Shown here piece by piece: positions 1 through 46,434 of a stretch of 47,931 nucleotides of DNA. Position 1 is the stretch's first letter, and every line of letters begins with the position of its first letter. The position numbers and the translations under genes were made by a program. This DNA is from Tannerellaceae bacterium. GTDB taxonomy: Bacteria; Bacteroidota; Bacteroidia; Bacteroidales; Tannerellaceae. The notes under the pieces are model-generated. The model was given only the letters and a program-made list of their open reading frames with translations. It did not search any database and had not been told where the DNA came from. Location of the stretch: NCBI GenBank assembly GCA_031280435.1, contig JAITGS010000009.1, positions 1 to 47,931 on the forward strand, written 5' to 3'.

Positions 1-240
1 CCTGTCCTAAACCGTTTAAGGCCTGTCCTAAACCGTTTAAGGCCTGTCCTAAACCGTTTAAGGCCTGTCCTAAACCGTTTAAGGCCTGTCCTAAACCGTT
101 TAAGGCCTGTCCTAAACCATTTAAGGCCTGTCCTAAACCGTTTAAGGCCTGTCCTAAACCGTTTAAGGCCTGTCCTAAACCATTTAAGGCCTGTCCTAAA
201 CCGTTTAAGGCCTGTCCTAAACCGTTGAAGGCCTGTCCTT
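1..240. repeat. 21-bp tandem repeat array, at least 11 copies
   Basis: Eleven complete 21-bp units run head to tail from 1 to 231, with a twelfth breaking off at about 240. The unit core is TAAACCGTTTA, an odd-centred palindrome (TAAAC, C, GTTTA), and unit junctions read AAGGCCTG. Copies 6 and 9 have CCATTTAAGG in place of CCGTTTAAGG, and copy 11 has CCGTTGAAGG; the others are identical. The array begins at base 1, so its true length is unknown. No spacers are present, which excludes CRISPR. Confidence 0.97.
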
Positions 241-440
241 TTTTGTTTATGTATCAGCTTCTTGCTGTTTTATTTGCCAAAAAAAGTTTTTGGGAGATGA
301 GGATGGCGATGAGGGGGCTTGGCATTGGGGCCGGGGATGAGGGCGGAGCGATGTTTGTGGTGGCTGCATCCTTTTCAAATCGTTTTTTTTAATTTTCTTT
401 GCTGCCTGAATCCTTTCTTATTATTAATATTTAAGTTATC
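241..440. other. Leader region before maeB, no gene seen
   Basis: About 200 bases separate the repeat array from maeB. The stretch holds T-runs near 238-244 and 384-391 and a G-rich segment at 295-360. No open frame with coding character, no clear TAnnTTTG box and no terminator hairpin were recognised. The last 20 bases before the maeB start are A/T-rich, as is usual for start regions in this window. Confidence 0.5.
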
Positions 441-2747
441 ATGGCAAAATCAATTAAAGAAGAAGCGTTGAAATACCACGCGGAGGGCAAGCCGGGAAAG
501 ATTGAGGTTGTTCCTACCAAACCTCATAGTACTCAGGCGGATTTGTCGCTGGCATACTCGCCCGGGGTGGCCGAGCCTTGCCTGGCTATCAGTAGCGAAC
601 CTCTTGATGCGTACCGCTATACGGCGAAGGGCAATCTGGTGGCGGTTATTTCGAACGGTACGGCTGTTCTGGGCCTTGGCGATATAGGTGCGGTGGCGGG
701 CAAGCCTGTTATGGAGGGCAAGGGCTTGCTGTTTAAGATATTTGCGGGCATTGATGTGTTCGATATTGAGGTGGATGAGAAGGATCCGGAGCTTTTTATC
801 CGCACCGTTAAGGCTATTGCTCCCACTTTTGGGGGTATCAATCTGGAGGATATTAAAGCGCCCGAATGTTTTGAGATTGAGGAGCGTCTGAAGGCTGAGC
901 TGGATATTCCGGTGATGCATGATGATCAGCACGGCACGGCTATTATCTCTGCTGCCGCTCTTTTGAATGCCCTCGAGATTACGGGTAAGGACATTTCGGA
1001 GGTTAGGATTGTGGTGAACGGGGCCGGGGCTGCTTCTATCTCGTGCACGCGGCTGTATGTGCTGCTTGGGGCTCGCCTTGAGAACATTGTGATGTGCGAC
1101 AGTCGTGGTGTGATCACGGTTAATCGCTCGGATCTGAACGCTCAGAAGCGTGAGTTTGCCACTGCGCGGCCTGTTGCTACCCTTGCGGAGGCTATGGTTG
1201 GCGCTGATGTGTTTCTGGGGCTTTCGGTTGCTAATGTGCTGAGCGGAGAGATGGTGAGGAGCATGAATCCCAATCCTATTGTGTTCGCGCTGGCCAATCC
1301 GGATCCTGAGATTTCATACACGGAGGCTATGAAATCGCGCAGTGACTTGATTTTCGCCACGGGTCGCTCCGATTATCCTAATCAGGTCAACAATGTTCTT
1401 GGTTTTCCATACATTTTTCGCGGAGCGCTCGACACTCATGCGCGTGCGATCAATGAGGAGATGAAGCTGGCGGCCGTGAGGGCTATTGCTGCCCTGGCTA
1501 AGGAGCCTGTGCCGGACGTTGTTAATGCTGCTTACCGCCTGAAGCGTACTACCTTCGGCCGCGATTATATTTTGCCCAAGCCTCTTGATCCGAGGCTGCT
1601 GACGGCGGTGTCGGTGGCCGTTGCCAAGGCTGCTATTGCCTCCGGCGTGTCGCGCAGGGATATTAGTGATTGGGATGCCTACGGCAATCATCTGCGTGAG
1701 ATGATGGGTTATGATAATAAGCTGATCCGTTCGTTTATTGATATGGCCAAAGCTCATCCCAAGCGGGTGGTTTTTGCGGAAGCGAATCACTCCAATATGC
1801 TTCGGGCGGCGGTTGAGGCTAAGGCGGAGGGCATTTGTATTCCTATCCTGATCGGTAATGAGGAACGGCTGCACAAAATTGCCCGCGAGGAGAACCTTAA
1901 CATTGAAGATCTGCAGATTGTGAACCTGAGGCATGACAGGGAGAGCGACAGGCGTGCCCGTTTTGCGGAGGCTCTGGCCTTTAAAAAGGGTCGTGAGGGC
2001 GTTACCTTCGATGAGGCTTTCGAGAAGATGAATAATCGTAATGCTTTTGGGATGATGATGGTGGAAACAGGCGAGGCTGATGCCTTTATCACCGGCGTGT
2101 ACAGCCGCTACTCGGAAGTGCTCAAGCTTGCCGAAGAGATTATCGGCATCCGCAAGGGTTTCAAATACTTTGGTGCGATGAATATAGTCCTAAGCAAGAA
2201 GGGGACGTTCTTTCTGTCGGATACGCTGATCAACAGGCATCCGTCGACTGAGGTGCTGATAGATGTGGCCCGGCTGACGCACGATGCTGTCCGCTTTTTT
2301 GCTCATGAGCCCGTCATGGCTATGCTTTCGTACTCCAATTTCGGCTCGGATAAGCTGGGTAGCCCGCAGAAGGTGCATGATGCCATCAGCTTCCTGCATG
2401 ATAACTATCCGGAGATGGTGGTAGACGGCGAGATGCAGATCAACTTCGCCTTCGACAGGAAGCTTCGCGACGAGAAGTATCCCTTCACCCGATTGCATGG
2501 CCGCGATGTCAACACTATGGTGTTTCCTAACCTGAGCTCGGCCAACAGTGCTTATAAGTTGCTGATCGAGATGGGGGTTGGGGAGACCATCGGCCCGATT
2601 CAGATGGGCCTCAACAAGCCTATCCACTTCACCGACCTGGAGAGCACTACCCGCGATATAGTTAATCTGACCACCGTGGCCGTTGTGGATGCCATCGTTC
2701 AGGAGCAGATGAAGGCTCTGGCGGATGCGGAGCGCTCGGCCCGTTAA
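441..2747 (+). CDS. maeB: NADP-dependent malic enzyme with phosphotransacetylase-like C-terminal domain
   Basis: Predicted to decarboxylate malate to pyruvate with reduction of NAD(P)+ in the cytoplasm. The 768-aa length is that of the large MaeB type. The N-terminal half (about 1-430) carries the malic enzyme segments [36 protein letters not shown] and MHDDQHGTA, then the dinucleotide-binding stretch VVNGAGAAS. The C-terminal part (about 430-760) resembles phosphate acetyltransferase; in this family that domain is generally regarded as regulatory and not as a working transacetylase. The ATG at 441 gives the standard N-terminus and follows an A/T-rich leader without a Shine-Dalgarno sequence. 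ysxC follows 27 nt downstream with no terminator between, so the two may be co-transcribed. Confidence 0.95.
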
Positions 2748-2774
2748 TTTGTATCCTTACACATTATATTATAT

Positions 2775-3371
2775 ATGGAGATTAAACATGCAAGCTTCGT
2801 TGTGAGCAATACGGATGTCGGCAAATGCCCGGAGGAGGGCAAGCCGGACTATGCGTTTATAGGCAGGAGCAATGTGGGCAAGTCGTCGCTGATTAATATG
2901 CTGACCAATCATGCGGGGCTGGCCCTTACGTCGCAAACTCCCGGCAAGACGCAGCTCATCAACCATTTTATCGTTAACGGCGAGTGGTATCTGGTGGATC
3001 TGCCGGGCTATGGATACGCTCAGAGGGGCCGTGACGGACGCGAGAAGATGCGCCGGATGATAGAGGACTACGTGATGTATCGCGCGCAGCTCGCCAACCT
3101 CTTTGTGCTGATCGACTGCCGGCATGAGCCTCAGAAGATCGACCTCGAGTTCATCACCTACGTTGGCGAGCATGGCGTTCCCTTCTCCATCGTCTTCACC
3201 AAGGCCGACAAGCTGAGCCATTCTCGCCTTCAGGAGAACCTTAAGGCGTACAAGGCAAAGCTGCTGGAGAGTTGGGAGGAGCTTCCGCCTGTATTTGTCA
3301 CCTCATCGCTGAAGAAGCAGGGCCGCGAGGAGATCCTGGAGTATATAGGCAGTATTAATGCAGAGCTCTGA
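2775..3371 (+). CDS. ysxC: Ribosome-biogenesis GTPase YsxC/EngB
   Basis: A 198-aa TRAFAC-class GTPase; the family acts in late assembly of the large ribosomal subunit. All G motifs are visible: G1 [10 protein letters not shown]2 threonine in SQTPGKTQ, G3 DLPGYGYA, G4 TKADK and G5 TSS. Length and motif spacing match YihA/YsxC/EngB. The start at 2775 lies inside an A/T-rich leader; the 19 bases at 2758-2776, including the first two of the ATG, recur exactly upstream of the GH9 gene at 29515-29533. A strong terminator-like hairpin follows at 3393-3427. Confidence 0.95.
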
Positions 3372-3392
3372 AGGCTTAGGGTATAACAAGGG

Positions 3393-3427
3393 AAGGGCCG
3401 GCTGTTTTGCAATCAGTCGGCCCTTTT
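3393..3427 (+). terminator. Rho-independent terminator after ysxC
   Basis: AAGGGCCGGCTG (3393-3404) pairs with CAGTCGGCCCTT (3414-3425) through 12 positions with one G-T wobble, across a 9-nt loop, and T residues continue to 3427. It lies between the convergent ysxC and the minus-strand gene at 3441. The minus-strand copy also starts with A/T bases, so it may work in both directions. Confidence 0.8.
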
Positions 3428-3440
3428 AGTTTAAGGCTCT

Positions 3441-3857
3441 TTACTTATAACCGATGAGGATACGGCATCTGGATTCGTAGGTTGGGGTGTCGGAGTCGTA
3501 GTTTTTGATGACAACGCGCATGCTTCGGCTGAAGGAGGGCTCAAAGCGGACCACTGCCACGTCCGAGCTGTCGGCATCTTTGGTATATTCTTCGCCGTCG
3601 GTTGATTTCAGGTAGATATCGACGTCGTTCACGTCGCTGTCGTCGGACATTCCGATGATGATGTACTCGTTGCCTTTGTAAAATTCCTTGGTGTAGGTGG
3701 CGCTCTCTCCCTGAGCGAGGTCGGCATACTGCTCGCTGGCGATTTTGTATCCGTTATTGATTATAAGAGCCTTTGCCTCCCGGTACGCAACCGATCCAAC
3801 CTGTGCCGAAGCCTGTGCGGAGATGATTATAAGTATCATGATAAAAAACTTTTTCAT
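3441..3857 (-). CDS. Small secreted protein of unknown function
   Basis: A 138-aa protein with a clear signal peptide: Lys-Lys start, a run of Ile/Leu/Met, then ASAQASAQ as a likely signal peptidase I site near residue 19. The mature part is acidic, with DDSDVNDVD and TDGEEYTKDADSSDV segments, and ends in short beta-like stretches (SMRVVIKNY, CRILIGYK). No lipobox is present, so it is predicted to be soluble in the periplasm or secreted. No family was recognised. It converges on ysxC and is preceded by about 620 bases without a gene, where two minus-strand TAnnTTTG boxes (4003-3996 and 4194-4187) could serve it. Confidence 0.75.
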   Translation of the reverse strand: MKKFFIMILIIISAQASAQVGSVAYREAKALIINNGYKIASEQYADLAQGESATYTKEFYKGNEYIIIGMSDDSDVNDVDIYLKSTDGEEYTKDADSSDVAVVRFEPSFSRSMRVVIKNYDSDTPTYESRCRILIGYK

Positions 3858-3936
3858 TGTGCTATAAAATTTAAAGTGTTACTATGATTGAAATTAAGGC
3901 TGTCCGTGTTGCTTGTTCTCAGGCTTACGCACATAA

Positions 3937-4107
3937 AAAAAGCGCGGACAGAACTCAGACTATTTGTTCCATGAGGTTCTCGACTACCTATCTACCAAAT
4001 ATACGAGCAAAGCCCGCGCCTAAGCGCGAGCGTCGTCGCTTTGCTCTCGGTAGATACTGAAATTGTCGAGATTTCATGAAACAAGAACTTAAGCTAAAAC
4101 GCTTTTT
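3937..4107. ncRNA. Candidate structured RNA or rod-like inverted repeat
   Basis: Five collinear arm pairs form one long imperfect hairpin: AAAAAGCG 3937-3944 with 4100-4107; TTGTTCCATGA 3964-3974 with 4074-4084 (one mismatch); TCTCGAC 3978-3984 with 4065-4071; TATCTACC 3989-3996 with 4049-4056; GAGCAAAGC 4005-4013 with 4038-4046. An open internal bubble lies between the first two pairs and a GC-rich loop at the tip. On the minus strand a TATCTTTG box (4194-4187) lies upstream and a U7 tract (3941-3935) follows the closing stem, so a minus-strand transcript of about 245 nt is plausible. The rod-with-bubble form recalls 6S-type RNA, but that is only a resemblance. Confidence 0.4.
3996..4003 (-). 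promoter_or_regulatory. Possible -7 box TATATTTG for the gene at 3441-3857
   Basis: The minus strand reads TATATTTG, an exact TAnnTTTG match, about 140 bases before the start codon at 3857. No well-spaced -33 TTTG was found. It lies within the large inverted repeat, so transcription from it would use half of that structure as a leader. Confidence 0.3.
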
Positions 4108-4186
4108 CCACAATGTCTTTAAGTGTGCGTACTATCGCATCTGTATTATCTCATACGCTATCATGTTTTTGTGATGTGAATAATTG

Positions 4187-4194
4187 CAAAGATA
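4187..4194 (-). promoter_or_regulatory. -7 box TATCTTTG pointing into the inverted repeat
   Basis: The minus strand reads TATCTTTGC, the commonest form of the promoter box in this window. Start of transcription would be near 4180, ahead of the rod-like repeat at 4107-3937 and the gene at 3857. No good -33 element was seen. Confidence 0.45.
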
Positions 4195-4481
4195 TGAAAA
4201 GTTTGTCGGAGATATTTCCGAACCCTATTTTAGGCCGTTCGGGCTTCGCCCTCTCTTATCTTCAGCCTTGTTCCTGTCCCCGCAGATCGCATTCAATGGA
4301 AAAGCGCATGACTTTTTGCCTGAACTGCCGGTGCGGGAGGCCTACTAAGGTTTATATCTCCCCCACCCTGCCTGCCATGGCTTGAAGCTAAAGTTGAATT
4401 TGGCTGCTGCGCCATTCGGACAGGTTTGCGGGATTTACCTATCTTCGCGTTCTCAAATAAATCAATTAATATTATATATAT

Positions 4482-6239
4482 ATGTATAGAACGAAAACTT
4501 GTGGAGAGCTGCGCTTAAGCAATATGGGCGCTACCGTTACTCTGGCCGGATGGGTGCAACGCTCGCGACGTATGGGGGGCATGACTTTTGTTGATTTGCG
4601 CGATCGGTATGGGATTACGCAACTCGTTTTTAATCAGGATAAGGATGCGGATTTGTGCGAGCAGGCCAACAAGCTTGGGCGTGAATTTGTGATACAGGTT
4701 ACGGGAATCGTGAGCGAACGCTCGAACAAAAATGCGCACATTCCTACCGGCGATATTGAAATAATTGTTGCCGGGATGCAGGTTCTGAACTGCGCCGCCA
4801 CGCCGCCTTTCACCATAGAAGACGATACGGACGGGGGCGACGACATCAGGATGAAGTACCGCTACCTCGACCTGCGCCGCCATGCCGTTCGCGCTAACCT
4901 CGAACTGCGCCACCAAATGACGGCCGAGGTGCGGAATTATCTTGGAGGCAAAAGCTTTATAGAGGTCGAGACGCCTATGCTCATAAGTTCTACGCCTGAA
5001 GGGGCCCGTGACTTTGTGGTGCCTTCGCGAATGAATCCCGGACAGTTCTACGCCCTTCCTCAATCGCCGCAAACCTTTAAGCAACTGCTGATGGTGTCGG
5101 GCTTCGACCGCTATTTCCAAATCGTGAAGTGCTTTCGCGACGAGGATTTGAGGGCCGACCGCCAGCCGGAGTTCACGCAGATTGACTGCGAGATGAGCTT
5201 CGTTGAGCAAGACGACGTTCTCTGCATGTTCGAGGGCATGACCAAACACCTATTCAAGAGCATACGAAACATTGAGCTCACCGAGCCCTTCCCGCGCATG
5301 ACCTGGGCCGACGCGATGAAATTTTACGGCTCCGACAAGCCCGACATACGCTTCGGAATGAAAATTGCCGAGCTCCCCGCCGAGCTGCTGCGCGGACACG
5401 GCTTTGCCCCCTTCAACAGCGCGGCCTACGTGGGCGGAATATGCGCCGAAGGGGCCGCCGCATATACCCGCAAGCAAATCGACGCCCTGACCGACTTCGT
5501 AAAGCGCCCGCAGATTGGAGCCAAAGGCCTGATTTACGCCCGTGTGGAGGCCGACGGCAGTCTCAAATCGAGCGTCGACAAATTCTACTCGCCGGATGAG
5601 CTGCTTCGAATCAAGTATCTATTTGGGGCCGGCCCGGGCGATCTTATCCTTATTATATACGGCGACGATGCTATGAAAACCCGCAAGCAACTCAGCGAGT
5701 TACGGCTTGAAATGGGCGGCCGGCTCGGATTGAGAGACAAAAATTCGTTTGCCTGCCTGTGGGTTGTAGACTTCCCGCTGCTGGAATGGAGCGAGGCCGA
5801 CGGCCGCTTCTATGCCATGCACCATCCCTTCACTTCGCCCAAGCCGGAGGACGTTCACCTGCTCGACAGCGATCCCGGAGCAGTCAGCGCCAATGCCTAC
5901 GACATGGTTATCAACGGCGTAGAGGTGGGCGGCGGCTCCATTCGCATCCACGACAGCGAACTCCAGCAGAGGATGTTCCGCCTGCTGGGATTCACGGACG
6001 AACAGGCCCTCGCCCGCTTCGGATTCCTCACCAATGCTTTCAGGTACGGCGCCCCTCCGCATGGGGGGATTGCCTACGGATTAGACCGTTGGGTATCGCT
6101 TTTTGCCGGCCTCGACTCCATTCGCGATTGCATAGCCTTCCCCAAGAACACTTCCGGGCGAGACGTGATGATAGACGCGCCCTCGACCATAGATGCATCC
6201 CAACTCGAGGAGCTGAATCTTTCGATCACCGCAAAATAA
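4482..6239 (+). CDS. aspS: Aspartyl-tRNA synthetase
   Basis: A 585-aa class II synthetase that charges tRNA-Asp. The N-terminal OB fold (about 1-110) includes [22 protein letters not shown]. Class II motif 1 lies around [20 protein letters not shown], motif 2 includes [18 protein letters not shown], and motif 3 is [10 protein letters not shown] near the C-terminus. The GAD insertion domain typical of the bacterial type fits residues about 290-400. The ATG at 4482 follows a long ATATATAT run. A TATCTTCG sequence at 4440-4447 could be an imperfect -7 box. The stop codon abuts the GNAT gene directly. Confidence 0.97.
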
Positions 6240-6725
6240 GTGCCGGCTGCCATTCGCGAGCTCCGCAAGGAGGAGCTTTGCCTCATGCCCGACCTCATGT
6301 ACGAAGCCATCTACCTGCCTGAAGGTCTGGCACCTTACCCGCGCGACATCATCAAGCTTCCGGTCATAGACGTTTATATCAGCGACTTCGGCAAGTATCC
6401 CACCGACCATTGCCTCCTTGCCGAAGTCGACGGCAGCATAGCCGGCGGCGTATGGACGCGGTTCCTCGCCGGCCAAACAAAAACCTACGAATATGTCGAG
6501 GCCGACGCTCCGGAGCTTGTCATCGCTGTTTTCGGCGAATATCGCAATCAGGGCGTCGGCCTTAGCCTAATGAATGCTATGATAAAACTGCTGGGGAAAA
6601 AAGGATATGGAACTGTTTGCTTAAGCGTCGACAAATCCAACTATGCCGTTGGCATGTATCGCAAACTCGGTTTCAAAGCGGTCGGCGAAAATGCGATTGA
6701 CTATGTGATGGAGCTGTCGCTATGA
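6240..6725 (+). CDS. GNAT-family N-acetyltransferase
   Basis: A 161-aa protein with the GNAT acetyl-CoA-binding pattern RNQGVGLSLMNAMIKLLGKKGY (about residues 102-123) followed by LSVDKSNYAVGMYRKLGF, the typical beta5/alpha4 segment. The substrate cannot be told from sequence. The first in-frame start is GTG at 6240, the base after the aspS stop, with zero spacing; the next in-frame ATG is more than a dozen codons inside, so GTG is chosen. This arrangement suggests translation by termination-reinitiation after aspS. The gene converges on phoU with only 6 bases between and no terminator. Confidence 0.85.
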   Translation: MPAAIRELRKEELCLMPDLMYEAIYLPEGLAPYPRDIIKLPVIDVYISDFGKYPTDHCLLAEVDGSIAGGVWTRFLAGQTKTYEYVEADAPELVIAVFGEYRNQGVGLSLMNAMIKLLGKKGYGTVCLSVDKSNYAVGMYRKLGFKAVGENAIDYVMELSL

Positions 6726-6731
6726 TGCGGC

Positions 6732-7391
6732 TTAGCCCTGATGCTTCAGCACCTTGGCGTCTACGTAAAACACAATCTCCTCCACAATATTGCTGCAATG
6801 ATCGCCTATGCGTTCCAGCTTGCGTATCAGCAGCATGGTCTTCAGCCCGCAGCGAATCAGGGAAGGATGGTCTGCAAGATATTCCGCAAGAATGTCAATG
6901 GAGCGGCGATAGATGTGATCGATCTCGTCGTCCTTCGAGAGTATCCTGCCCGACAGCACGGTGTCTTCCGAATAGAAGGCCGTGAAGCTGTCGGACAGCA
7001 TGCTGCGCAGTATGCCGAACATGTCCTCGCTGCGTAACTCCTTCATTATGTTCGGCTCAATGGTATTGCAATCGGCGTCTATCACGTGGCGGGCTATGCC
7101 CTCGGCGAAATCGCCTATACGCTCCAGCGTCATGCTGATTTTGATGAGCGACAGCACGAGCCGCAGGTCGATCGCCACCGGCGCATAGAGTGCGATATAG
7201 TTCTCACAATCACTGTCTATCTTGAGTTCGAAGGCGTCGACGCGCTTTTCCCTGCTGACCACCTCGCGGGCCAGCTCCATGTCGTTGTTGATAAAAGCTT
7301 GCTCCGATTTTTCGAGCTGCGACATCACCAGCATCCACATTTGGCTCACCGCATCTTTCAGGGCCTGCAATTCTTTCTCGGTATGTTTCAT
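6732..7391 (-). CDS. phoU: PhoU phosphate signalling regulator
   Basis: A helical protein with two PhoU repeats, each with an acidic metal-binding pattern (AREVVSREKRVDAFE and LSKDDEIDHIYR). PhoU links the Pst transporter to the PhoR/PhoB two-component system and restrains phosphate uptake. The start at 7391 (MKHTEKEL) is preferred to 7409: the upstream choice would overlap pstB by 8 bases, while 7391 follows ATATAT, the usual leader here, and leaves 10 bases after the pstB stop. It is the last gene of the porin-pstSCAB-phoU run. Confidence 0.95.
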   Translation of the reverse strand: MKHTEKELQALKDAVSQMWMLVMSQLEKSEQAFINNDMELAREVVSREKRVDAFELKIDSDCENYIALYAPVAIDLRLVLSLIKISMTLERIGDFAEGIARHVIDADCNTIEPNIMKELRSEDMFGILRSMLSDSFTAFYSEDTVLSGRILSKDDEIDHIYRRSIDILAEYLADHPSLIRCGLKTMLLIRKLERIGDHCSNIVEEIVFYVDAKVLKHQG

Positions 7392-7401
7392 ATATATGTT
7401 T

Positions 7402-8148
7402 TTATCCAAATCTTCCGGTTATATAATTCTGTGTCTCTGCCTTTTCGGGGTTGAGAAACATTTTTTTCGTATCGCTGTACTCAACGAGCTCGCCAAGCAT
7501 GAAAAAGCCCGTTCGGTCACTCACGCGCGCTGCCTGCTGCATGTTGTGAGTAACGATAACTATGGTATATTCTTGCTTGAGAATATGTATAAGTTCCTCA
7601 ATTTTAGAGGTAGATATGGGGTCGAGGGCCGATGCCGGCTCGTCCATAAGCAGTATTGAGGGCGAAACGGCCAGCGCACGCGCAATGCAGAGCCTCTGCT
7701 GCTGCCCGCCGGAAAGCTCGAAGGCCGACTTCTTGAGTTTGTCCTTCACCTCATCCCAAAGCGCCGCCGATACCAGCGACTCCTCCACACGCTGCCTGAT
7801 GAAGGCCTTGTCGCGCACGTCATTAACCCGCAATCCGTAGGCAACATTCTCGAATATGGACTTGGGAAAAGGATTGGGCTTTTGGAAAACCATTCCCACC
7901 TTTTTACGCAAATCGTCAACCTGCACGGACTTATTGTATATGTTCTCGCCGTCCACTATGCACTCGCCCGTCAAGCTCGTGTTCTCAATAAGGTCGTTCA
8001 TGCGGTTAAAAAGTCGCAGGAAAGTTGACTTGCCGCATCCGGAGGGGCCAATGAAGGCCGTAACCGTGTGTGGCTCTATCCGTATGCTTACGTTTTTGAG
8101 GGCGTGGAAAGAGCCGTAATAAAAGTCGATGTTTCTGGTTTCTATCAT
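7402..8148 (-). CDS. pstB: Phosphate ABC transporter ATP-binding protein
   Basis: A 248-aa ATPase that drives phosphate import. Walker A is GPSGCGKST, the Q loop lies in [16 protein letters not shown], the signature is LSGGQQQR, Walker B is [12 protein letters not shown], and the switch histidine is in IVTHNMQQA. The KPNPFPKSI segment is characteristic of PstB. It starts 4 bases after the pstA stop. Confidence 0.98.
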
Positions 8149-8152
8149 AACA

Positions 8153-14375: not shown

Positions 14376-14663
14376 ATGAACAGGATATTCCCTGATATAG
14401 AAGCAACTTTCCGCCATGAATTCCGGACGTTCCCGATCCCGCGCGGCTACTTAGCCGGAAAATCGGGCTACTTAGCCGGAAAACCCGGCTACTTAGCCGG
14501 AAAACCCGGCTACTTAGCCGGAAATCCCGGCTACTTAGCCGGAAAACCCGGCTACTTAGCCGGAAAATGCGGCTACTTAGCCGGAAAATGCGGCTACTTA
14601 GCCGGAACCTTAAAAGAATGTTCGGAATACTTTAAGACAGCCCGAAATTCTTATCGGACATAG
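14376..14663 (+). other. Open frame through the 21-bp array, doubtful gene
   Basis: Because 21 is a multiple of three, the array stays open as a 95-codon frame: an unrelated N-terminal 23 residues (MNRIFPDIEATFRHEF...), then eight heptapeptides GYLAGK followed by S, P, N-P or C, then an unrelated tail. Copy-to-copy base changes fall in one place of the unit and alter the amino acid, with no sign of synonymous preference. No TAnnTTTG box was seen upstream. I treat it as non-coding by default. Confidence 0.2.
14445..14612. repeat. Second 21-bp tandem array, 8 copies
   Basis: Eight 21-bp units begin at 14445 and every 21 bases to 14592. Each opens with GGCTACTTAGCCGG, in which GGCTA and TAGCC are inverted around CT; the variable part is AAAATCG, AAAACCC, AAATCCC or AAAATGC. 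The sequence is unrelated to the 21-bp array at 1-240 although the period is the same. It lies between divergently placed sufS and the 3' end of gcvP. Confidence 0.97.
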
Positions 14664-33992: not shown

Positions 33993-34421
33993 ATGATAAG
34001 AGAAAAAATTCGGGTCGGAGCCGAACGCCCATTCGGTGGATCGCCGAACGAGCATTCGGTGGATCGCCGAACGCCCATTCGGTGGATCGCCGAATGGGCA
34101 GTCGGGTCACAGCCGACCGAGCATTTGGGTCACTCTCAAATGGGCATTCGGGTCACTCTCAAATGGGCATTATGCGATCGCAGAGTAGCCATTATGCGAT
34201 CGCAGAGCGGCCATTATTGAGATCGTTTAATGTACATTAAAGGGATCGTTTAATTACCATTAAAGGGATCGCATAATGTACATTAAAGGGATCGCATAAT
34301 GTACATTAAAGGGATCGCATAATGTACATTAAAGGGATCGCATAATGGGCATTAAACGGATCGCATAATCCCCACCCGGTATTTCATCACTAAGGATTTA
34401 TAATTTATAAGTATATAAAAC
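33993..34421. other. Gene-free region filled by a 23-bp array
   Basis: Between the TIM-barrel gene and the esterase there is no credible gene. About 350 of 429 bases are the tandem array described separately; the remainder is an A/T-rich leader of the esterase. Confidence 0.7.
34012..34374. repeat. Drifting 23-bp tandem array, about 15 units
   Basis: Units of about 23 bp run through the region, most containing GATC. The sequence shifts along the array: early units have CCGAA and TTCGG arms around CGAGCA or CGCCCA; the middle has CAAATGGGCATT and CATTATGCGATCG; later units have TTAATGTACATTAA arms, including an exact 16-base palindrome TTTAATGTACATTAAA at 34226-34241. The late type recurs nearly unchanged three times (34270-34338). 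Arms change on both sides together, so most units stay self-complementary. Confidence 0.92.
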
Positions 34422-39082: not shown

Positions 39083-39091
39083 GCGACAGCT

Positions 39092-39346
39092 TTATGCGTA
39101 ATACTCAAAGAGCCGCCGAACGTATCGACCGTTCTGCGGCTCTTTGTCTGTTTTTGCATATCCTCCATTCCATAGCCAAGCCCATTGCGGCACATACACA
39201 GTGTCGGGCGGCTCCTCCACCACAACCGTATCCACGGGCGGAGGCACAGGCTCCGGCTCGCCATTGCTCCCCCCGCATCCGGCAAGGGAAAGCGCAAGGA
39301 AGAGCACTACCCCTGTCGTCAATAAGACTATCCGTATCCTTTTCAT
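39092..39346 (-). CDS. Short lipoprotein, family member 1 (perhaps truncated)
   Basis: An 84-aa protein: signal RIRIVLLTTGVVLFLALSLAGC with lipobox LAGC, then GGSNG, a Pro/Glu/Val linker (EPEPVPPPVDTVVVEEPPDTV) and only about 35 residues more. Members 2 and 3 next door share the signal and linker but have 130-150 further residues. The stop lies close to the GH2 end, and its last codons run through the 39106-39146 inverted repeat, so this is either a truncated gene or a short lipopeptide. Confidence 0.6.
   Translation of the reverse strand: MKRIRIVLLTTGVVLFLALSLAGCGGSNGEPEPVPPPVDTVVVEEPPDTVYVPQWAWLWNGGYAKTDKEPQNGRYVRRLFEYYA
39106..39146. terminator. Inverted repeat after the GH2 gene
   Basis: CAAAGAGCCGC (39106-39116) is the exact reverse complement of GCGGCTCTTTG (39136-39146), with a 19-nt loop. 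Its place 24 bases after the GH2 stop fits a terminator, though no clean U-run follows. It also lies inside the coding frame of the short lipoprotein on the other strand. Confidence 0.5.
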
Positions 39347-39359
39347 TGTGTTTAAAGTT

Positions 39360-39959
39360 CTAATCCTTATAGTCTATTTCTAAGTCGCGGATAATGCGCG
39401 TGACCCACATTCTGGTGTGTGGGTATTCGCAAAAGAGGAAGAGGCTGTCGGTTACATGGCCGCTGATTCTGACAGGCAACCATTCACGCCTGTATTGCAC
39501 CGGAATGGCTTCGCATGGCAACAGGACTTTAATCATCAAACCCAGATAGACTCCGTCGAGAGCAATATAGAACAGCTCTCGCTCTTTTATGCCCTCTATA
39601 TTTGTATAACAGCCTTTGAAAATGTGCGCAGGTTCATCGGTAAGCGTTTTCACAATCTCAAGATGCGCCGCTTGCTCAAATATATTGTAATTGTAAATGC
39701 TCGCCGTGTCGGGAACATCCGGCGGCTCCGGGTAATCGAAGTTGTGCGGGACATACGTAGTGTCGGGAATATATGGCTCTTCCGGTGTATACGTAGTATC
39801 GGGGGCATTCGGCTCGTTAGGAACTTGCGTCGTATCCGGTTCATCCGTATCCGGCACCATCTCCTCACCACCATTACTCCCCCCGCATCCCGCAAGGGCA
39901 AGGAAGAGCACAACCCCTGTAATCAATAAAACTATCCGTATCCTTGTCTTCATAATCAA
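39360..39959 (-). CDS. Lipoprotein, family member 2
   Basis: A 199-aa protein with the shared signal RIRIVLLITGVVLFLALAGC, GGSNGG, and a linker with three PDTT repeats (EPDTTQVP, APDTTYTP, IPDTTYVP). The C-terminal domain (about 90-199) includes EPAHIFKGCYTNIEGIKERELFYIALDGVYLGLMI and ends with WVTRIIRDLEIDYKD; no family was recognised and it has no similarity I can see to members 1 and 3. Start may be 39959 or the Met at 39953. It follows member 3 by 6 bases. Confidence 0.75.
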   Translation of the reverse strand: MIMKTRIRIVLLITGVVLFLALAGCGGSNGGEEMVPDTDEPDTTQVPNEPNAPDTTYTPEEPYIPDTTYVPHNFDYPEPPDVPDTASIYNYNIFEQAAHLEIVKTLTDEPAHIFKGCYTNIEGIKERELFYIALDGVYLGLMIKVLLPCEAIPVQYRREWLPVRISGHVTDSLFLFCEYPHTRMWVTRIIRDLEIDYKD

Positions 39960-39965
39960 TAAGCC

Positions 39966-40562
39966 TCATTGTTTTATTTTGCGAAATACTCGCAATGCGC
40001 ATATTCGGGTCACGCCGTCTTCATGGAAATAGCTACCGTAATAAGCTAACATGTCTGCGCTTAAGCTCTCACAGCTAAATCGTCTGCCGTCTATGGACAC
40101 TTCGAGTTGCATATAGTCTTCATGCGAAACCTCACCAAATGTATACTTGAACTTGCCTGAAGGAATAGCCGTGGTATCGGAAATCACCGTCAGCGTGCTG
40201 TCCGCATCGAATTCATACAAAACCGTTCGGCAGGAGTAGTCCGTTGAAGCCTTCAAATATGTCGTACAGGGGTCATGAGTAAGCAATAGTTTCCACTTGC
40301 CGACAATTCCATCGTCTCCCGTCCTATCCGTCGCATTCTTTACGACTGTGTTATTCATACATCCCAAACTGTTAAGACGCGGTATCAATCCTTCATACCG
40401 ATAGATTGATGGCATAATTATCGTATCCGGCGGCTCCGTCACAACCGTATCCGCAGGCGGCGGCACCACCTCCGGCCCATCGCCGTTGCTCCCCCCGCAT
40501 CCCGCCAGCGCAAGGAAGAGCACAACCCCTGTCGTCAATAAAATCATTTGTAACTGTTTCAT
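39966..40562 (-). CDS. Lipoprotein, family member 3
   Basis: About 198 aa beginning MKQLQMILLTTG, with lipobox LAGC, GGSNG, a linker with PPPADTVVTEPPDT, and a C-terminal domain (about 70-198) whose GKWKLLLTHDP and YEFDADSTLTVISDTT segments recall lipocalin-like lipoproteins of Bacteroidota. The start at 40562 is chosen because an upstream candidate at 40595 overlaps the -7 box at 40600-40593. It is the first gene of the three-gene run. Confidence 0.78.
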   Translation of the reverse strand: MKQLQMILLTTGVVLFLALAGCGGSNGDGPEVVPPPADTVVTEPPDTIIMPSIYRYEGLIPRLNSLGCMNNTVVKNATDRTGDDGIVGKWKLLLTHDPCTTYLKASTDYSCRTVLYEFDADSTLTVISDTTAIPSGKFKYTFGEVSHEDYMQLEVSIDGRRFSCESLSADMLAYYGSYFHEDGVTRICALRVFRKIKQ

Positions 40563-40592
40563 AAGGATTTTTTTTGGAATTAATATATGCTT

Positions 40593-40600
40593 CAAATTTA
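40593..40600 (-). promoter_or_regulatory. -7 box TAAATTTG for the lipoprotein run
   Basis: The minus strand reads TAAATTTG, an exact TAnnTTTG match, 30 bases before the start at 40562. It rules against the longer start at 40595. Confidence 0.5.
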
Positions 40601-41179
40601 AAAATTTTTAGGAGATTGGGAGGGGATGGATTTGGCATTGAGAGATAATTCCGGCGCCTGCTGCTTACAGGGGGGATGAAGCATTGTACGTTTCGGACGC
40701 AAAACTCCGGCGGCAGAAGGGAAATGTCGAAAAACAGGCGCCTCCTTTTCCGTCGAGGAGCCTCCGGAAAAAAAATTTGGCACCTCCTCGACGGAAAAGG
40801 AGCCTCCAAAAAAAATTTTTGGCACCTCCTCGACGAAAAAGGAGGCCTCAAAAAAAATTTTGGAGCCTCCTCGACGGAAAAGGAGGCGCCAAAAAAAAAA
40901 TTTGGAGCCTCCTCGACGGAAAAGGAGGCCTCAAAAAAAATTTTGGAGCCTCCTCGACGGAAAAGGAGGCGCCAAAAAAAAATTTTGGGGCCTCCCCGAC
41001 GAAAAAAAACCGCCAAAAAAAATTTTTGGAGCCTCCTCGACGGAAAAGGAGGGGGAGAAAAACAGCTTCGCAGGCGACATATCCTCCGCAGAGAGCCTCC
41101 GTTTTTTGGCATTAGCCGGCTTTTTTCGTAATTCGCAGACGGAAAAATTTCAGTTACACATATATTATATACCACAGAT
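40601..41179. other. Gene-free region with phased A-tract array
   Basis: Between the divergent lipoprotein run and the NIF3 gene there is no credible gene; overlapping open frames in several phases are low-complexity products of the array at 40739-41055. The 20 bases before 41180 hold the A/T-rich leader TATATTATATACC. Confidence 0.7.
40739..41055. repeat. 41-42-bp array of hairpins separated by A-tracts
   Basis: Seven units are marked by CGACG at 40789, 40831, 40872, 40914, 40955, 40997 and 41038; steps alternate 42 and 41. Each unit is GCCTCCT, a short loop with CGACGGAAA, AGGAGGC, then GCC or CTC, and a run of 8-10 A followed by 3-5 T. GCCTCCT and AGGAGGC form a 7-bp stem. The GCGCC and GCCTC junction types alternate in the middle of the array, giving an 83-bp dimer. 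An inverted unit (40739-40763) opens the array. Confidence 0.95.
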
Positions 41180-42280
41180 ATGAAGATTAGAGAGATTATT
41201 CGGGAGATTGAGCGGCTGGCGCCTGTTGCGCTTCAGGAAGGCTTCGACAACTGCGGCCTGCAAGTGGGCGATGCCGATGCGGAGGCCGTCGGCGCACTTA
41301 TTTGCCTCGACCTCACAGAGGCTGTCCTGGACGAAGCCATAGCCCTGGGCTGCAACCTCATCATTTCGCATCATCCCGTAGCATTCAAGGCCTTCAAATC
41401 GCTCACGGGCCGCAGCTACACCGAGCGATGCATGATGAAGGCCTGCCGGCACGAGCTGGCTATTTACGCCGCGCACACCAACCTCGACAATGCTGCGGGA
41501 GGGCTGAACTTCGTGCTGGCCCGCCGGATAGGGCTGCAGTCGGTTCGCATCCTGAGCCCCAAGGGAGGCGCGCTGCTGAAGCTGACCGTCTTCGTGCCCG
41601 AGGCCCATGCCGAGGCCGTCCGCGCTGCTGTTTTCGAGGCCGGCGCCGGGCATACTGGAGGCTATGATTCGTGCAGCTTCAGTGTGAGCGGCGAGGGGAG
41701 CTTCCGGGCCGGCCGGGGCTGTCGGCCCTTCTGCGGCGAGGTCGGAGAGCTGCACCGCGAGCCGGAAGTTCGCATCGAAACCGTCTTGCCCTCCTTCCGA
41801 AAGAGCGCCGTTGTGAGTGCTCTGCTCAAGGCCCATCCCTACGAGGAGCCGGCATTCGACCTTTATCCGCTGGCCAACGCCTGGGCGGGCGCCGGCTCCG
41901 GCATCACGGGCGAGCTTACGGCCGAGGAAGATGCGGCCGCATTTCTGCTTCGCATAAAAGATATACTCGGAGCCCGCGTGCTGAAACATTCGGCTATCAT
42001 CCGCCCAAAGCTTAGGCGGATAGCGGTTTGCGGAGGCAGCGGCGCCTTCCTACTGCCCGAAGCCGCGGCCTCAGGCGCCGACATCCTCATCACCGGCGAG
42101 GCTAAGTACAACGACTACTACGATGCGGCCGACAGCGGCATCCTCCTGGCCGTAGGCGGACACTACGAAACCGAGTGGGGAGCGGCAACCGAAGCGCTTA
42201 GCGAAATCATATCCGAAAAATTCCCTACTTTTGCGCAACATATTTCTAATGTTAATTTTAATCCTATAAAATATTTATAA
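41180..42280 (+). CDS. NIF3-like dinuclear metal-centre protein
   Basis: A 366-aa NIF3/YqfO-type protein. N-terminal metal ligands lie in ISHHPVAFKAF and YAAHTNLDNA; the C-terminal half has GEAKYNDYYDA and GGHYETEWGA with the remaining His and Glu. A central insert (about 125-235) with LLKLTVFVPEAHAEAVRAAVFEAGAG is the PII-like domain of the longer YqfO type. Some family members are suggested GTP cyclohydrolase-like enzymes or metal chaperones, but the role is unclear. It is followed after 4 bases by the zinc-ribbon gene. Confidence 0.93.
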   Translation: MKIREIIREIERLAPVALQEGFDNCGLQVGDADAEAVGALICLDLTEAVLDEAIALGCNLIISHHPVAFKAFKSLTGRSYTERCMMKACRHELAIYAAHTNLDNAAGGLNFVLARRIGLQSVRILSPKGGALLKLTVFVPEAHAEAVRAAVFEAGAGHTGGYDSCSFSVSGEGSFRAGRGCRPFCGEVGELHREPEVRIETVLPSFRKSAVVSALLKAHPYEEPAFDLYPLANAWAGAGSGITGELTAEEDAAAFLLRIKDILGARVLKHSAIIRPKLRRIAVCGGSGAFLLPEAAASGADILITGEAKYNDYYDAADSGILLAVGGHYETEWGAATEALSEIISEKFPTFAQHISNVNFNPIKYL

Positions 42281-42284
42281 ACCG

Positions 42285-43079
42285 ATGGCAAAGAAACCCG
42301 TTGTTGAAAAAGATTATTCGGTGGAAGATAAACTCTCCGCACTGTACAAACTTCAATTGATGCTTACAGAGATCGACAAGATCAAAACCCTGCGCGGCGA
42401 GCTTCCTCTCGAAGTGCAGGACCTGGAAGACGAGATTGCCGGGCTCGACACCCGCCTGTATAACTTCCAGTCCGACGTGAAAGAATACGAGTACGCTATC
42501 CTCTCGCAGAAGAACAAGATTGCGGATTCCAAAGGACTGATTGAGCGATACCAGGGCCAGCTCGACAACGTCCGCAACAATCGCGAGTTCGACAATCTTT
42601 CGAAGGAGATAGAATTTCAGGGCCTTGAGATTGAGTTTTCGGAGAAGAAGATACGCGAGTTCAACGAGATCATGGCCTCCAAGAAGGTAGACATCTCCCA
42701 TCTTGCCGAGAACCTCGACGGCCGCCGCTTAGACCTCGAGCAGAAGCGCGGCGAGCTCGACTCCATAGTGGCCGAAACCAAGCACGACGAAGAGAAGCTG
42801 CGCGAGAAGGCAAAGAAGCTCGAAGGCAACATAGAGCCACGACTGCTCACCGCCTTCAAGCGCATACGCAAAGGAGCCCGCAACGGCCTCGCCATCGTAT
42901 ACATCCAGCGGGATGCCTGCGGAGGATGCTTCAACAAAATACCGCCGCAGAAGCAGATGGACATCAAGCTGCGAAAGAAAATCATAGTTTGCGAATACTG
43001 CGGACGAATCATGATCGACCCCGAACTCGCCGGCGTGGCCGAGCCGCCAAAGCCTCAGCCTCCCAAAAACGATGACTAA
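42285..43079 (+). CDS. Coiled-coil zinc-ribbon protein (C4-type)
   Basis: A 264-aa protein with a long charged helical hairpin (about 15-195, heptads of Leu/Ile with many Glu/Lys) and a C-terminal zinc ribbon CGGCF...CEYCG (about 210-245). This domain order is that of the family often paired with NIF3 in many bacteria; nucleic-acid binding is suggested by the ribbon but not known. A Pro-rich tail ends it. Its last 8 bases overlap menB. Confidence 0.9.
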
Positions 43080-43890
43080 GGACTGGCAAAGCATAGGCAG
43101 GTACGAGGATATACTCTTCGACTTCCATAAGGGCGTCGCCCGCATCACCATCAACCGCCCGCAGGTTCGCAACGCTTTCACCCCCGATACAACATCCGAA
43201 ATCAGTTCAGCCCTCCTCGTTTGCCGCGAGGAGGCCGATATTCGCGTGGTCGTCATCACCGGAGCCGGCGACAAAGCCTTCTGCTCCGGAGGCGACCAGA
43301 ACGTGAAGGGCGAGGGAGGATACGTCGGCCGCGACGGCGTTCCGCGGCTGAACATACTCGACGTGCAGAAGCAAATCCGCTCCCTCCCCAAGCCCGTCAT
43401 AGCCATGGTCAACGGATACGCCATAGGAGGCGGGCATGTGCTGCACGTAGTTTGCGACATCAGCATAGCCTCCGACAATGCCGTCTTCGGACAAACCGGG
43501 CCGCGCGTCGGAAGCTTCGACGCCGGATTCGGAGCCTCCTATCTGGCACGCATCGTAGGACAGAAGAAAGCCCGCGAGATATGGTTCCTCTGCCGGCAAT
43601 ACTCCGCGCAGGAAGCGCTTGAGATGGGGCTCGTCAACAAGGTCGTACCGCTCGAACGGCTCGAAGACGAAACCATTGCATGGGCCGAAGCCATGATGAT
43701 GCACAGCCCCCTCGCCCTCCGGATGATCAAAGCCGGACTCAATGCCGAGCTCGACGGACAGGCCGGCATACAGGAGCTCGCCGGCAACTCCACCCTCCTT
43801 TACTACCTCACCGACGAAGCCGCGGAAGGCAAGCAGGCTTTCCTCGAAAAACGCAAGCCCGACTTCGACCGCTTCCCGCAATTTCCCTGA
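43072..43890 (+). CDS. menB: 1,4-dihydroxy-2-naphthoyl-CoA synthase
   Basis: A 272-aa crotonase-fold enzyme that cyclises o-succinylbenzoyl-CoA in menaquinone synthesis. Visible segments: [56 protein letters not shown] (oxyanion hole) and [22 protein letters not shown], which with [14 protein letters not shown] are diagnostic for MenB. It overlaps the zinc-ribbon gene by 8 bases and is followed after 7 bases by the menC-menE fusion. Confidence 0.96.
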
Positions 43891-43897
43891 TACGACG

Positions 43898-45907
43898 GTG
43901 CAATCCGCCTCTCCCCTCCTACTTTCCACAATACGTTCGCAACTGATATTCCGGCAGCCCGCCGGAACCTCTCGCGGCGTCTTTGTGCGGCGCCAAGTAC
44001 GCTATGTGACGGTAGCGCGGGCCGACGACCCGCTGCGATGGGGCATAGGAGAGTGCTCGCCACTGCCCGGGCTCAGCTGCGACGAGCTGCCCGACTTCGA
44101 CCGGCGCCTCTCGGACATCTGCCGGAACATTGAGCGGACAGGCGGCTTCGACCCCGACCTGCTTCGCCCCTACCCCTCCATACTCTTCGCCCTCGAAACA
44201 GCCTTCCGCCATCTCGAAACCGGCAGCTACGCCCTTTGGGATACCGCCTTCTCGCGCGGCGAGGCCGGCATCCCCATCAACGGCCTGATATGGATGAGCG
44301 ACAAGGAGAGCATGCTGCGACAGATAGACGCCAAGCTGGCCGACGGCTTCCGATGCATCAAGCTCAAGATAGGAGCCATAGACTTTGCCGACGAGCTGTC
44401 GCTGCTGAAGCACATACGCCGCAGCTTTTCGGCCGCCGACCTGAGTCTACGGGTAGATGCCAACGGGGCCTTCCCGCCTCAGGAAGCTACGGCGGCGCTC
44501 GACCGGCTTGCAGCCTTCGACCTCGAATACATAGAGCAGCCCCTACGCGCCGGGCAATGGGATGCAATGGCCCGCTTGGTTGCCGAATCGCCGGTCCCCG
44601 TGGCGCTCGACGAAGAGCTCACTGGATGCAATACGCCCGAAGGCAAGCGCAGGCTGCTCTATACCATTCGCCCCCACTTCCTCATCCTGAAGCCTACGCT
44701 GCACGGCGGAATCGGCGGATGCGGCGAATGGATAGCCGAGGCCCTACGGACAGGCGCCGGCTGCCGCATCACATCGGCCTTAGAGTCGAACATCGGCCTC
44801 AATGCCATAGCCCAGTGGTGCGCCACCCTCGACGACCCTCATCCCCAAGGCCTCGGCACCGGCAGCCTTTATACAACCAACGTTCCCATGCCCCTCGAGC
44901 TGCAAGGCCCCAGCCTGCATTTCAAGCCTTCGGCCCGCGTGGCGGCATATCCGCTGCCTCTTGAGGGCGATGAGATAAGCACAGGCACCTCCGGCTCCAC
45001 AGGACAGCCGCGCCAAATCCGCATCCGCAAGGAACAAATCGCCCACAGCGCCGGGCTGACCATCCGCAGGCTCGGCTTATGCCCCGGCAACAGCGCCCTC
45101 CTCTGCCTGCCGCGGCAATACATAGGGGGGCTGATGATGACGGCCCGCAGCCTCGCCGGAGGCCTCCGCCTGCTTGAGGTCGAAGCATCGGGGCATCCGC
45201 TGGCCGGCATAAGCTCCGGCTTCGACCTCATAGCCATGACCCCCATGCAGGCGTACAACTCGCTGCTGATCGCTGCCGAGAAAGAAACCCTGCGCCGCGC
45301 CCGCAACCTGCTTATAGGAGGAGGAGCCATGGATGCCGCCCTCGAAAAGGAGCTGGCGCAATTCCCCAACGCCGTATACTCCACCTACGGCATGACCGAA
45401 ACCGTGTCGCACATCGCCCTCCGCCGCATCAATGGGCCGGAAGCCTCCGAGTGGTACGAGCCTCTGCCCGGCATCGAGCTCACTCTCAGTGTAGATAATA
45501 CCCTGATAATTGCCGCTCCCCAGCTGAGCGATACCCCGCTTCGCACCAACGATATTGCCGAGCTGCGGGCCGACGGCCGCTTCCGAATCCTCGGCCGCAG
45601 CGACCTCACGGTCAACAGCGGCGGCCTGAAAATCCAAATAGAGCAGGTGGAAGACAGAATCCGCCGCCTCATCCCGCATGACTTTGCCCTCACCCACGCG
45701 CCCGACCCCAGGTTGGGGCAGGCCCTGACGCTGCTGGTGGCCGACGACGACGTCAGCGGCATACGTCAGAAGCTTGCCGACGGCCTGCCTCCCTTCGAGC
45801 GCCCTCGCCGCATCATTGCCGTGCCCTCCATCCCTCTCACTCCTTCCGGCAAAATCGACAGGCCTGCCTGCCTTGAGCTGGGCAGAGGAATACCTTCCGA
45901 AGAATAA
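43898..45907 (+). CDS. menC-menE: Fused o-succinylbenzoate synthase and o-succinylbenzoate-CoA ligase
   Basis: A 669-aa protein from GTG at 43898, the only in-frame start after the menB stop; the frame also stays open upstream inside menB, which is a shadow. The N-terminal domain (about 1-340) is MenC, with its enolase-superfamily residues K155/K157 (IKLKIG), D187 (VDANG), E213 (IEQP), D238 (LDEEL) and K265 (LILKP). The C-terminal domain (about 345-669) is a short MenE with P-loop GTSGSTGQPR, YSTYGMTETVS and LTPSGKIDRPA. All motifs of both are present and the join lacks a stop, so one chain should do two successive steps before MenB. Confidence 0.9.
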   Translation: MQSASPLLLSTIRSQLIFRQPAGTSRGVFVRRQVRYVTVARADDPLRWGIGECSPLPGLSCDELPDFDRRLSDICRNIERTGGFDPDLLRPYPSILFALETAFRHLETGSYALWDTAFSRGEAGIPINGLIWMSDKESMLRQIDAKLADGFRCIKLKIGAIDFADELSLLKHIRRSFSAADLSLRVDANGAFPPQEATAALDRLAAFDLEYIEQPLRAGQWDAMARLVAESPVPVALDEELTGCNTPEGKRRLLYTIRPHFLILKPTLHGGIGGCGEWIAEALRTGAGCRITSALESNIGLNAIAQWCATLDDPHPQGLGTGSLYTTNVPMPLELQGPSLHFKPSARVAAYPLPLEGDEISTGTSGSTGQPRQIRIRKEQIAHSAGLTIRRLGLCPGNSALLCLPRQYIGGLMMTARSLAGGLRLLEVEASGHPLAGISSGFDLIAMTPMQAYNSLLIAAEKETLRRARNLLIGGGAMDAALEKELAQFPNAVYSTYGMTETVSHIALRRINGPEASEWYEPLPGIELTLSVDNTLIIAAPQLSDTPLRTNDIAELRADGRFRILGRSDLTVNSGGLKIQIEQVEDRIRRLIPHDFALTHAPDPRLGQALTLLVADDDVSGIRQKLADGLPPFERPRRIIAVPSIPLTPSGKIDRPACLELGRGIPSEE

Positions 45908-45990
45908 GCCGCCGGGCATAATTCCCCTGTCGGGGAAGTGGTTGTACGCACAGCCTCCTACAATTATTTAATAGATGAAGCTCTTCAATG

Positions 45991-46434
45991 AGGTTTCCCG
46001 CACGCTTTTGGAAACTTACGAAAGCTCGAATCGAGTTTCCCGTGAGCTTTTGTAAACTTCCAGAAAGCTTGGATTGAGTTTCCCGTGAGCTTTCGGAAAC
46101 TTCCGGAAAGCTTGGATTGAGTTTCCGCAAGCCTCCGGAAACTTACGGAAGGCTTGGATCGACTGCCGCGCGAGCTTTTGGAAACTTACGGAAAGCTTGA
46201 GTTGGATTTCCGCAAGCCTCCGGAAACTTACGGAAGCTTGAACTTAGTTTTCCGCGAGCTTCCGGAAACTTACGGAAGGAATGAATCGAGGTTCCCGCGA
46301 GCTTCTATAACTTGCGAAAGCATGAATCGAGGTTCCCGCGAGCTTCTATAAACTTGCGGAAGGAATGAATCGAGATTCCCGCGAGCTTCTATAACTTGCG
46401 AAAGCATGAATCGAGGTTCCCGCGAAAGAATGTG
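45991..46434. repeat. Degenerate 42-43-bp tandem array, about 10 units
   Basis: Units begin near 45993, 46035, 46078, 46121 and so on at steps of 42 or 43. The core pattern is TTTCCCGCGAGCTT, then TTGGAAACTTACGGAAAGCTTG and GAAT(C)GAG, written here in parts. AGCTTTC and GGAAAGCT arms around GGAAACTTCC form small stems in the better copies. The last four units share a variant with CTTCTATAA. The array is more diverged than the others in the window. Confidence 0.9.

Follow-up and report, generated by a model that had tools for sequence, protein, structure and literature searches.

The gaps between genes in the genome of an uncultured Tannerellaceae bacterium hold many tandem arrays that vary in sequence but whose units are, with few exceptions, about 21 or 41–42 bases long. 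The window, by which we mean the whole 47,931-nucleotide stretch analysed here (contig JAITGS010000009.1, our C72, of assembly GCA_031280435.1), carries five such arrays, and a sample of the same genome (hereafter G000; 3.06 Mb in 143 contigs, 83% complete) shows units held almost invariably to two (21 bp) or four (40–43 bp) turns of DNA, sequences that are free, and arrays that are mostly intergenic. We tentatively read them as size-locked noncoding satellites, in which a ruler acting on DNA in two-turn steps would set the unit length and in which site and size class can outlast the sequence, a reading in which we place slightly less than even confidence.

Results

In the G000 sample (40 further stretches besides the window; 663 kb), 109 intergenic arrays reach a score of 60 or more in Tandem Repeats Finder (TRF), the threshold of our period table, and 102 of them have periods of 21, 23 or 40–43 bp: 17 arrays of 21 bp, 4 of 23, 14 of 40, 43 of 41, 23 of 42 and 1 of 43. 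The remaining periods are 63 (two arrays), 126 (three), 13 and 77 (one each). Arrays occupy 18.5% of the called intergenic bases of this sample, at a density of about 164 intergenic arrays per Mb; extrapolation gives roughly 500 arrays per genome, perhaps too high a figure since the stretches were picked by contig number and are nearly all contig starts, which favours arrays. Of the 40 G000 contig starts examined, 10 have an array no more than 40 bp away, where about 5% would be expected to.

Genes were called with a simple codon-usage caller of our own design, at a laxer setting for the census than for the gap-orientation and window-overlap counts. At the census setting, 19 arrays fall in called open reading frames (ORFs), with periods of 12, 15 (four), 21 (five), 23, 41 (four), 42 (two), 83 and 210; periods of 21, 23, 41 or 42 account for 12 of the 19, and the 19 include array 4 of the window (Table 1) and the array at site B (see below). 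Several of these ORFs are probably not real genes, because a 41-bp period cannot keep frame. One 42-bp array (L053, 8217–8384) lies in a frame that is open throughout, in a gene that aligns with the closest sampled genome, G009, where the array is missing. At the stricter setting, arrays occur in 14 of 42 convergent gaps, 21 of 42 divergent gaps and 29 of 238 same-strand gaps, the last being mostly short.

A check that uses no repeat finder, in which clusters of recurring 11-mers are counted at each lag, places 25 intergenic clusters at lags 20–23, 7 at 24–38, 135 at 39–44 and 7 at 45–60, with multiples also at 63, 82–84 and 123–126; the corresponding coding counts are 9, 13, 7 and 10. Lags 39–44 set against 24–38 plus 45–60 give 135:14 between genes and 7:23 in coding DNA (p about 1e-13, the clusters being not fully independent). 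The earlier note, made from the letters of the window, had named a strong excess of periods near 21 and 42, confined to intergenic sites, as support for its reading; census and lags both show such an excess, far stronger between genes than in them, and neither an even spread of periods nor arrays equally common inside genes is seen, a small coding peak at lag 21 apart. Chance or a repeat-finder artefact is rejected as the source of the arrays: 20 dinucleotide shuffles of the window yielded zero arrays at a score of at least 60 (top score 49), and neither 50 kb of E. coli nor 73 kb drawn from five Verrucomicrobiota-type loci contained an array at score 60.

The 165 arrays of G000 and G009 that entered clustering (of 174) fall into 123 sequence families, 99 of which were seen once in the sample, so the claim that each locus has a different unit is mostly right. 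Nine arrays were omitted from clustering (periods 12, 13, 15 (five), 75 and 210; one or two 77-bp arrays were kept), and because off-size arrays were left out the periods per family are not independent evidence of size locking. The remaining 24 families occur at more than one place; 14 of them share similar flanks too, some of these matches being neighbouring arrays or a common dispersed element, and 10 have no flank match. Part of the spread therefore copies more than the array. Five families were found in both G000 and G009, at places not shown to be the same site. As a separate observation, one array (L043, 11789–12438) passes through several different 21-bp unit sequences with its period unbroken.

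G009, the closest genome (82% protein identity at the NIF3 gene, about 80% DNA identity), has 38 intergenic arrays, all at 21–22, 40–42, 82 or 126 bp, and 8 in called ORFs; its assembly is 60% complete, and its sample (231 kb) was partly picked for matching the window or the window's repeats, which biases its density upwards. Orthologous gaps were compared where chained alignments totalled 800 bp or more, and empty gaps were reported only above 60 bp. The convergent gap that holds array 5 in G000 holds in G009 a 42-bp array of unrelated sequence. At the NIF3 gene, G009 has a 42-bp array of a different family from array 4, which reaches the contig end so that only one flank is aligned. A third gap, with a 42-bp array in G009, is doubtful: G000 has there a two-copy 42-bp repeat that overlaps dispersed-element sequence and lies next to what looks like a decayed array. 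Sites A and B carry an array in G000 only, G009 having short unrelated DNA there; a minor 21-bp repeat is likewise present in G000 only, and six further gaps longer than 60 bp have no array in either genome. None of the few gaps compared retained the same array sequence. On these few sites, array content has turned over within gaps between genomes of about 80% DNA identity, while site and size class can persist: in two gaps both genomes have 41–43-bp arrays of unrelated sequence, and in two others an array is present in G000 only. In another genome, G001, the homologue of the gene that follows array 3 has a 21-bp array of other sequence upstream, a comparison that covers this one neighbour.

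Samples of the other genomes are mostly small (5–34 kb), so that absence there is weak evidence. Periods of 21–22 bp make up 6 of 7 arrays in G007, 10 of 20 in G025 and 3 of 6 in G027. The 39–45 class was seen in four sampled genomes, namely G000 (87 arrays), G009 (36), G012 (5, mean 42.8) and G024 (1); the effect of genome on this class has a p of 0.0001, which may rest largely on the five G012 arrays, and is absent for the 20–23 class (p 0.61). Among 21 named loci, which were collected as relatives of one window protein and may or may not belong to the sampled genomes, the 39–45 class occurs in two (L015, 42–43 bp, Dysgonamonadaceae; L027, 41 bp, Tannerella sp.) and a 23-bp array in L012; no arrays were seen at L010 (Seramator) or L011 (Proteiniphilum).

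The units have a loose common architecture. Compared with non-array intergenic DNA, A/T runs of at least 7 occur in 23 of 90 forty-class families (4.8 expected, maximum 12 in 200 sets), with no consistent strand bias; the same class has stems of at least 7 in 34 of its 90 families, where 6.5 are expected and 20 sets reached 13 at most, and the twenty class has stems of at least 5 in 11 of 25 families (3.2 on average). The statement that nearly every unit contains a small inverted repeat was therefore too strong. Dyad symmetry of the whole unit is modestly raised (p at most 0.05 in 29 of 89 forty-class and 5 of 25 twenty-class families). A 21-bp sub-period within forty-class units is weak, with a z of 2.0 at lag 21 that is equalled at lags 13 and 19 (73 units). 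TTCCGCAA, the best homopolymer-free 8-mer of those ranked at the top, occurs in 8 of 114 families.

Within the window, the five arrays are the only ones with a TRF score of at least 60 (scores 233–457), and they are real and lie nearly where the earlier note had placed them (Table 1). The stricter gene calls overlap none of them; the laxer calls put array 4 inside an ORF that we consider spurious, since no reading frame survives a 41-bp period. Array 2 is flanked by an aminotransferase gene and gcvP, both on the − strand, array 3 lies upstream of a carboxylesterase gene and array 4 upstream of a DUF34/NIF3 gene. That the five are not one dispersed repeat holds in that their sequences differ; it does not hold to the extent that three of them have relatives elsewhere in G000: DNA resembling array 1 is found also at the ends of contigs C11, C103 and C110, and the families of array 2 and array 4 recur in L041 and L051 and in L042 and L050, respectively. 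Array 3 has no relative in the G000 and G009 samples, and array 5 has none in the sampled part of G000 and matches places in G009. Rfam gave no match in the window. Elsewhere in the window, the single ORF at 43742–45907 matches an enolase-superfamily C-terminal domain and an AMP-binding enzyme, and thus resembles a fusion of two genes of what we take to be the menaquinone pathway.

Table 1. Tandem arrays and dispersed repeats of the window
Feature	Position	Strand	Description
Array 1	1..239	.	21-bp unit CCTGTCCTAAACCGTTTAAGG, 11.4 copies (TRF); truncated by contig end
Array 2	14444..14607	.	21-bp unit CGGCTACTTAGCCGGAAAACC, 7.8 copies (TRF)
Array 3	34010..34369	.	22–23-bp period through several successive blocks, each different in sequence
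Array 4	40756..41053	.	41–42-bp unit, about 7 copies; A/T tract and palindromes
Array 5	45993..46425	.	period 43 bp, 41-bp stretch at 46281–46425; 10.3 copies
Dispersed repeat adjoining array 5	46430..46512	.	about a dozen similar places listed in G009
Palindromic dispersed element, MITE-like (see text)	47795..47931	.	core TCATTCCCGCGAAGGCGGGAATCTCCGATCG; at contig end

The palindromic element at the end of the window resembles a miniature inverted-repeat transposable element (MITE). Among 18 genomes of the genus examined, it has 87 matches in G000, 54 in G009 and 1 in G012, and none in the 15 others; these counts take in the two strands of the palindrome, and scoring was limited to 40 candidates in G000 and likewise in G009. 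A direct scan found 30 places in the 663 kb of G000. In gaps with at least 100 bp of other DNA, an array is present in 9 of 11 gaps with the element and in 50 of 163 without it (p 0.001); the shorter gaps give 0 of 2 and 5 of 146. It may be that the element and the arrays merely accumulate where gaps tolerate them. Several arrays have nearby another dispersed palindrome, GTAGAGACGCGATGCATCGCGTCTCTAC or a variant (in the L040 flank before 2127, with variants in the L044 and L200 flanks). Two array units searched in viral contigs gave 0 matches each.

Discussion

Our results suggest that what is held constant in these arrays is the spacing of the units rather than their sequence. In the mechanism that we propose, an array would arise either when local DNA is duplicated or when a fragment of another array is copied in, some families would travel with flanking, MITE-like DNA, and slippage or recombination among its units would lengthen and shorten it; efficient starts, or retention, would be limited to units of one or two 21-bp quanta, because a DNA-bound complex would work in two-turn steps. 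Candidates for such a complex are a nucleoid protein that polymerises along DNA, or a repair or recombination machine, and the ruler may read spacing and a loose architecture (an A/T tract beside a G/C block, often with a short dyad) rather than sequence. The G000 intergenic arrays with fewer than 2.7 copies and at least 90% identity, all seven of which are at 41, 42 or 126 bp, suggest that an array has its size from early on or takes it over from arrays already present. A general mutational bias to the forty class is disfavoured, because coding DNA is not clearly enriched at lag 42, even if selection within genes may mask an excess. A two-turn quantum fits better than mere helical phasing, since phasing also predicts units of 31–32 bp, which are nearly missing. 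The bolder form of the proposal, a lineage-specific cellular ruler with a two-turn quantum that writes or keeps intergenic satellites, whose site and spacing are inherited and whose sequence is replaced wholesale, seems to us rather unlikely.

A number of observations weigh against a ruler or limit what speaks for it. Units of 31–32 bp (three turns) are nearly missing though they would be phased equally well, 22–23 bp fits 10.5 bp per turn poorly, and the predicted curvature of the units is not above that of shuffled units. The earlier note was right on size and place, but helical phasing by itself leaves unexplained the three-turn gap and the 22–23-bp periods common in relatives; selection for strong curvature is rejected, the curvature predicted from wedge values not exceeding that of shuffled units. 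Coding DNA has 7 clusters at lag 21, a small peak, and 3 at lag 42, and the excess at lag 21 could be mutational or come from miscalled ORFs. The weak common motif of the units, a T tract followed by a G/C block, scores 2.24 per sequence against 0.59–0.87 in non-array intergenic DNA, but the margin is smaller against shuffled units (2.50 vs. 1.48–1.67), and the array sets had more search starts than the controls. In a pairing test that treats stems wrapping the unit boundary crudely, stem columns are paired in 0.881 of cells against 0.874 in shuffles (slid controls, 0.56–0.70), and double changes in stems number 36 against 22.8 (s.d. 3.4) in shuffles and 6–17 in slid controls; the dyads are not strongly maintained. 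Indels of at least 4 bp are rare inside arrays (3 of 242, of which two measure exactly 21 bp; in aligned intergenic DNA outside arrays they make up 13% of 77), a result biased by the splitting of arrays at large gaps in TRF, and indels per substitution are not lower in arrays (0.076 vs. 0.056). In the other genomes, two of three high-identity low-copy arrays are off-size (17 and 19 bp; the samples are small), and the persistence of sites rests on two clear gaps and one doubtful one. Overall, the interpretation of the earlier note is partly supported.

The main rival dispenses with a ruler: the arrays would be the variable cores of MITE-like elements, comparable to BrickBuilt and PgRS, in which transposition spreads the arrays, slippage varies the copy number and founders fix the size. 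As a complete explanation we think this doubtful; MITE-like carriage is, however, likely to be a contributor to dispersal. It would account for the similar flanks of 14 of the 24 multi-locus families, and for the palindromic element, which lies in the same gaps as arrays and reaches large numbers only in the two genomes with many 40–43-bp arrays, G000 and G009. In the parts of the report of Klein and colleagues that we cite (PMC4596501), Porphyromonas gingivalis, of the same order, has MITEs with 23-nt and 41-nt arrays, 22-nt arrays are mentioned as well, and two of the three types lie inside MITEs; BrickBuilt and PgRS/MITE464 resemble the present arrays in being intergenic, of 23 and 41 nt, and unrelated in sequence. 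Each of those is, as described there, one family of about 10–20 copies, whereas here there are more than 100 families, most of them seen once, and a few founders would hardly yield more than 100 unrelated units of one length. BrickBuilt is also described with a leader, a tail and IS5-like ends (PMC4596501); a possible counterpart of leader and tail here is seen in the 14 families with similar flanks, some of which are neighbouring arrays or the dispersed element, and the other 10 multi-locus families showed no flank match.

It is also conceivable, though improbable, that the arrays act as RNA, with repeated hairpins that end transcription, shield mRNA ends or give rise to small RNAs. RNAs of three units are predicted to be somewhat more stably folded than shuffled ones (mean z −1.51 in forty-class and −1.29 in twenty-class units), and the 52-nt satellites of Bacillus coagulans are, in the sections cited, reported as transcribed (PMC8161180; PMC8625621). 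However, terminator-like units, with a stem and then a T run, are few (in the forty class 3 of 89 families, in the twenty class 1 of 25), if more than the 0.6 and 0 that shuffles gave, and intrinsic terminators are rejected on these counts; divergent gaps carry arrays as well as convergent ones, A/T runs show no consistent strand bias, Rfam has no match in the window, and the fixed spacing would be left unexplained. Plain replication slippage without size preference, aided by repeats and palindromes, is very improbable: the differences within arrays are of the kind that it produces (substitutions, mostly single-base indels, block-wise copies), but the near-empty intergenic lags of 24–38 and 45–60 contradict it, and we reject it; the earlier note had already remarked that slippage does not explain the common periods. 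Loss of the palindrome nuclease SbcD is not the cause, because SbcD is present in both G000 and G009. An origin from Y1 transposases associated with repetitive extragenic palindromes (RAYT/REPIN), which would suit intergenic, palindromic and partly dispersed arrays, is hardly credible and is rejected, since neither G000 nor G009 gave a Y1_Tnp match, though 33 of 60 searched genomes have one; with assemblies 83% and 60% complete, the absence is uncertain.

Returning to size-locked satellites, the kind itself, which the earlier note had described as new to its author, is already known: both constant-size satellites and the arrays of P. gingivalis had been published (PMC8161180, PMC4596501). Subirana and Messeguer, in the portions of their paper cited here, describe bacterial satellites of constant size and variable sequence, which measure 20–23 nt in a wide range of groups and 52 nt in Firmicutes, carry short sequences specific to the species and are partly conserved from strain to strain, with a function that was not known; they equate 20–21 nt with two turns, and a role in nucleoid binding or as small RNAs is their suggestion (PMC8161180). 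Our arrays resemble these satellites, as far as described there, in being noncoding (109 intergenic vs. 19 in called ORFs in G000), in forming many unrelated families of near-fixed length in one genome (102 of 109; 123 families), and in being partly conserved between close genomes; they may also have weak common short sequences. Their 21–23-bp periods are among the sizes given in that paper, whereas the dominant 40–43 bp lies outside them. The tandem repeats of Borgs are similar in that many independently arising, fast-evolving arrays occur per genome, and differ in occurring also in genes and in being enriched in adenine, and their abstract is silent on size locking (PMC9879509). Intergenic tandem repeats linked to deletions in lake Planctomycetota are likewise reported with no discussion of fixed sizes in the text consulted (PMC9426551). 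The term "Bacteroid" is absent from PMC8161180 and PMC8625621, as is "Bacteroidetes" from the main text of PMC6749651, a table of which lists one 69-nt Flavobacterium family. Judged from titles and abstracts, the literature searched holds no other recognised account of size-fixed intergenic arrays in Bacteroidetes.

As far as these literature searches go, a lineage dominated by 41–42-bp arrays, with turnover at fixed sites, is new. The four-turn class may already be published; a further paper by Subirana and Messeguer (J. Bacteriol., 2020) reportedly names 22/44 nt. The 52-nt satellites of Bacillus amount by reckoning to five turns, and other lineages therefore differ in size.

In conclusion, satellites of fixed length and free sequence have been reported in bacteria before, without a known function or a mechanism that sets their size, and the lineage described here offers a dense system in which a close relative has the same sizes with other sequences and in which the sampled arrays of other members of the genus are fewer and mostly about 22 bp. 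It also carries a warning for genome assembly, as assemblies seem to break at the arrays. With it one can ask if unit size is fixed when an array is born or is the outcome of selection, and can look for a factor that sets genomes having the 40–43-bp class apart from those lacking it.

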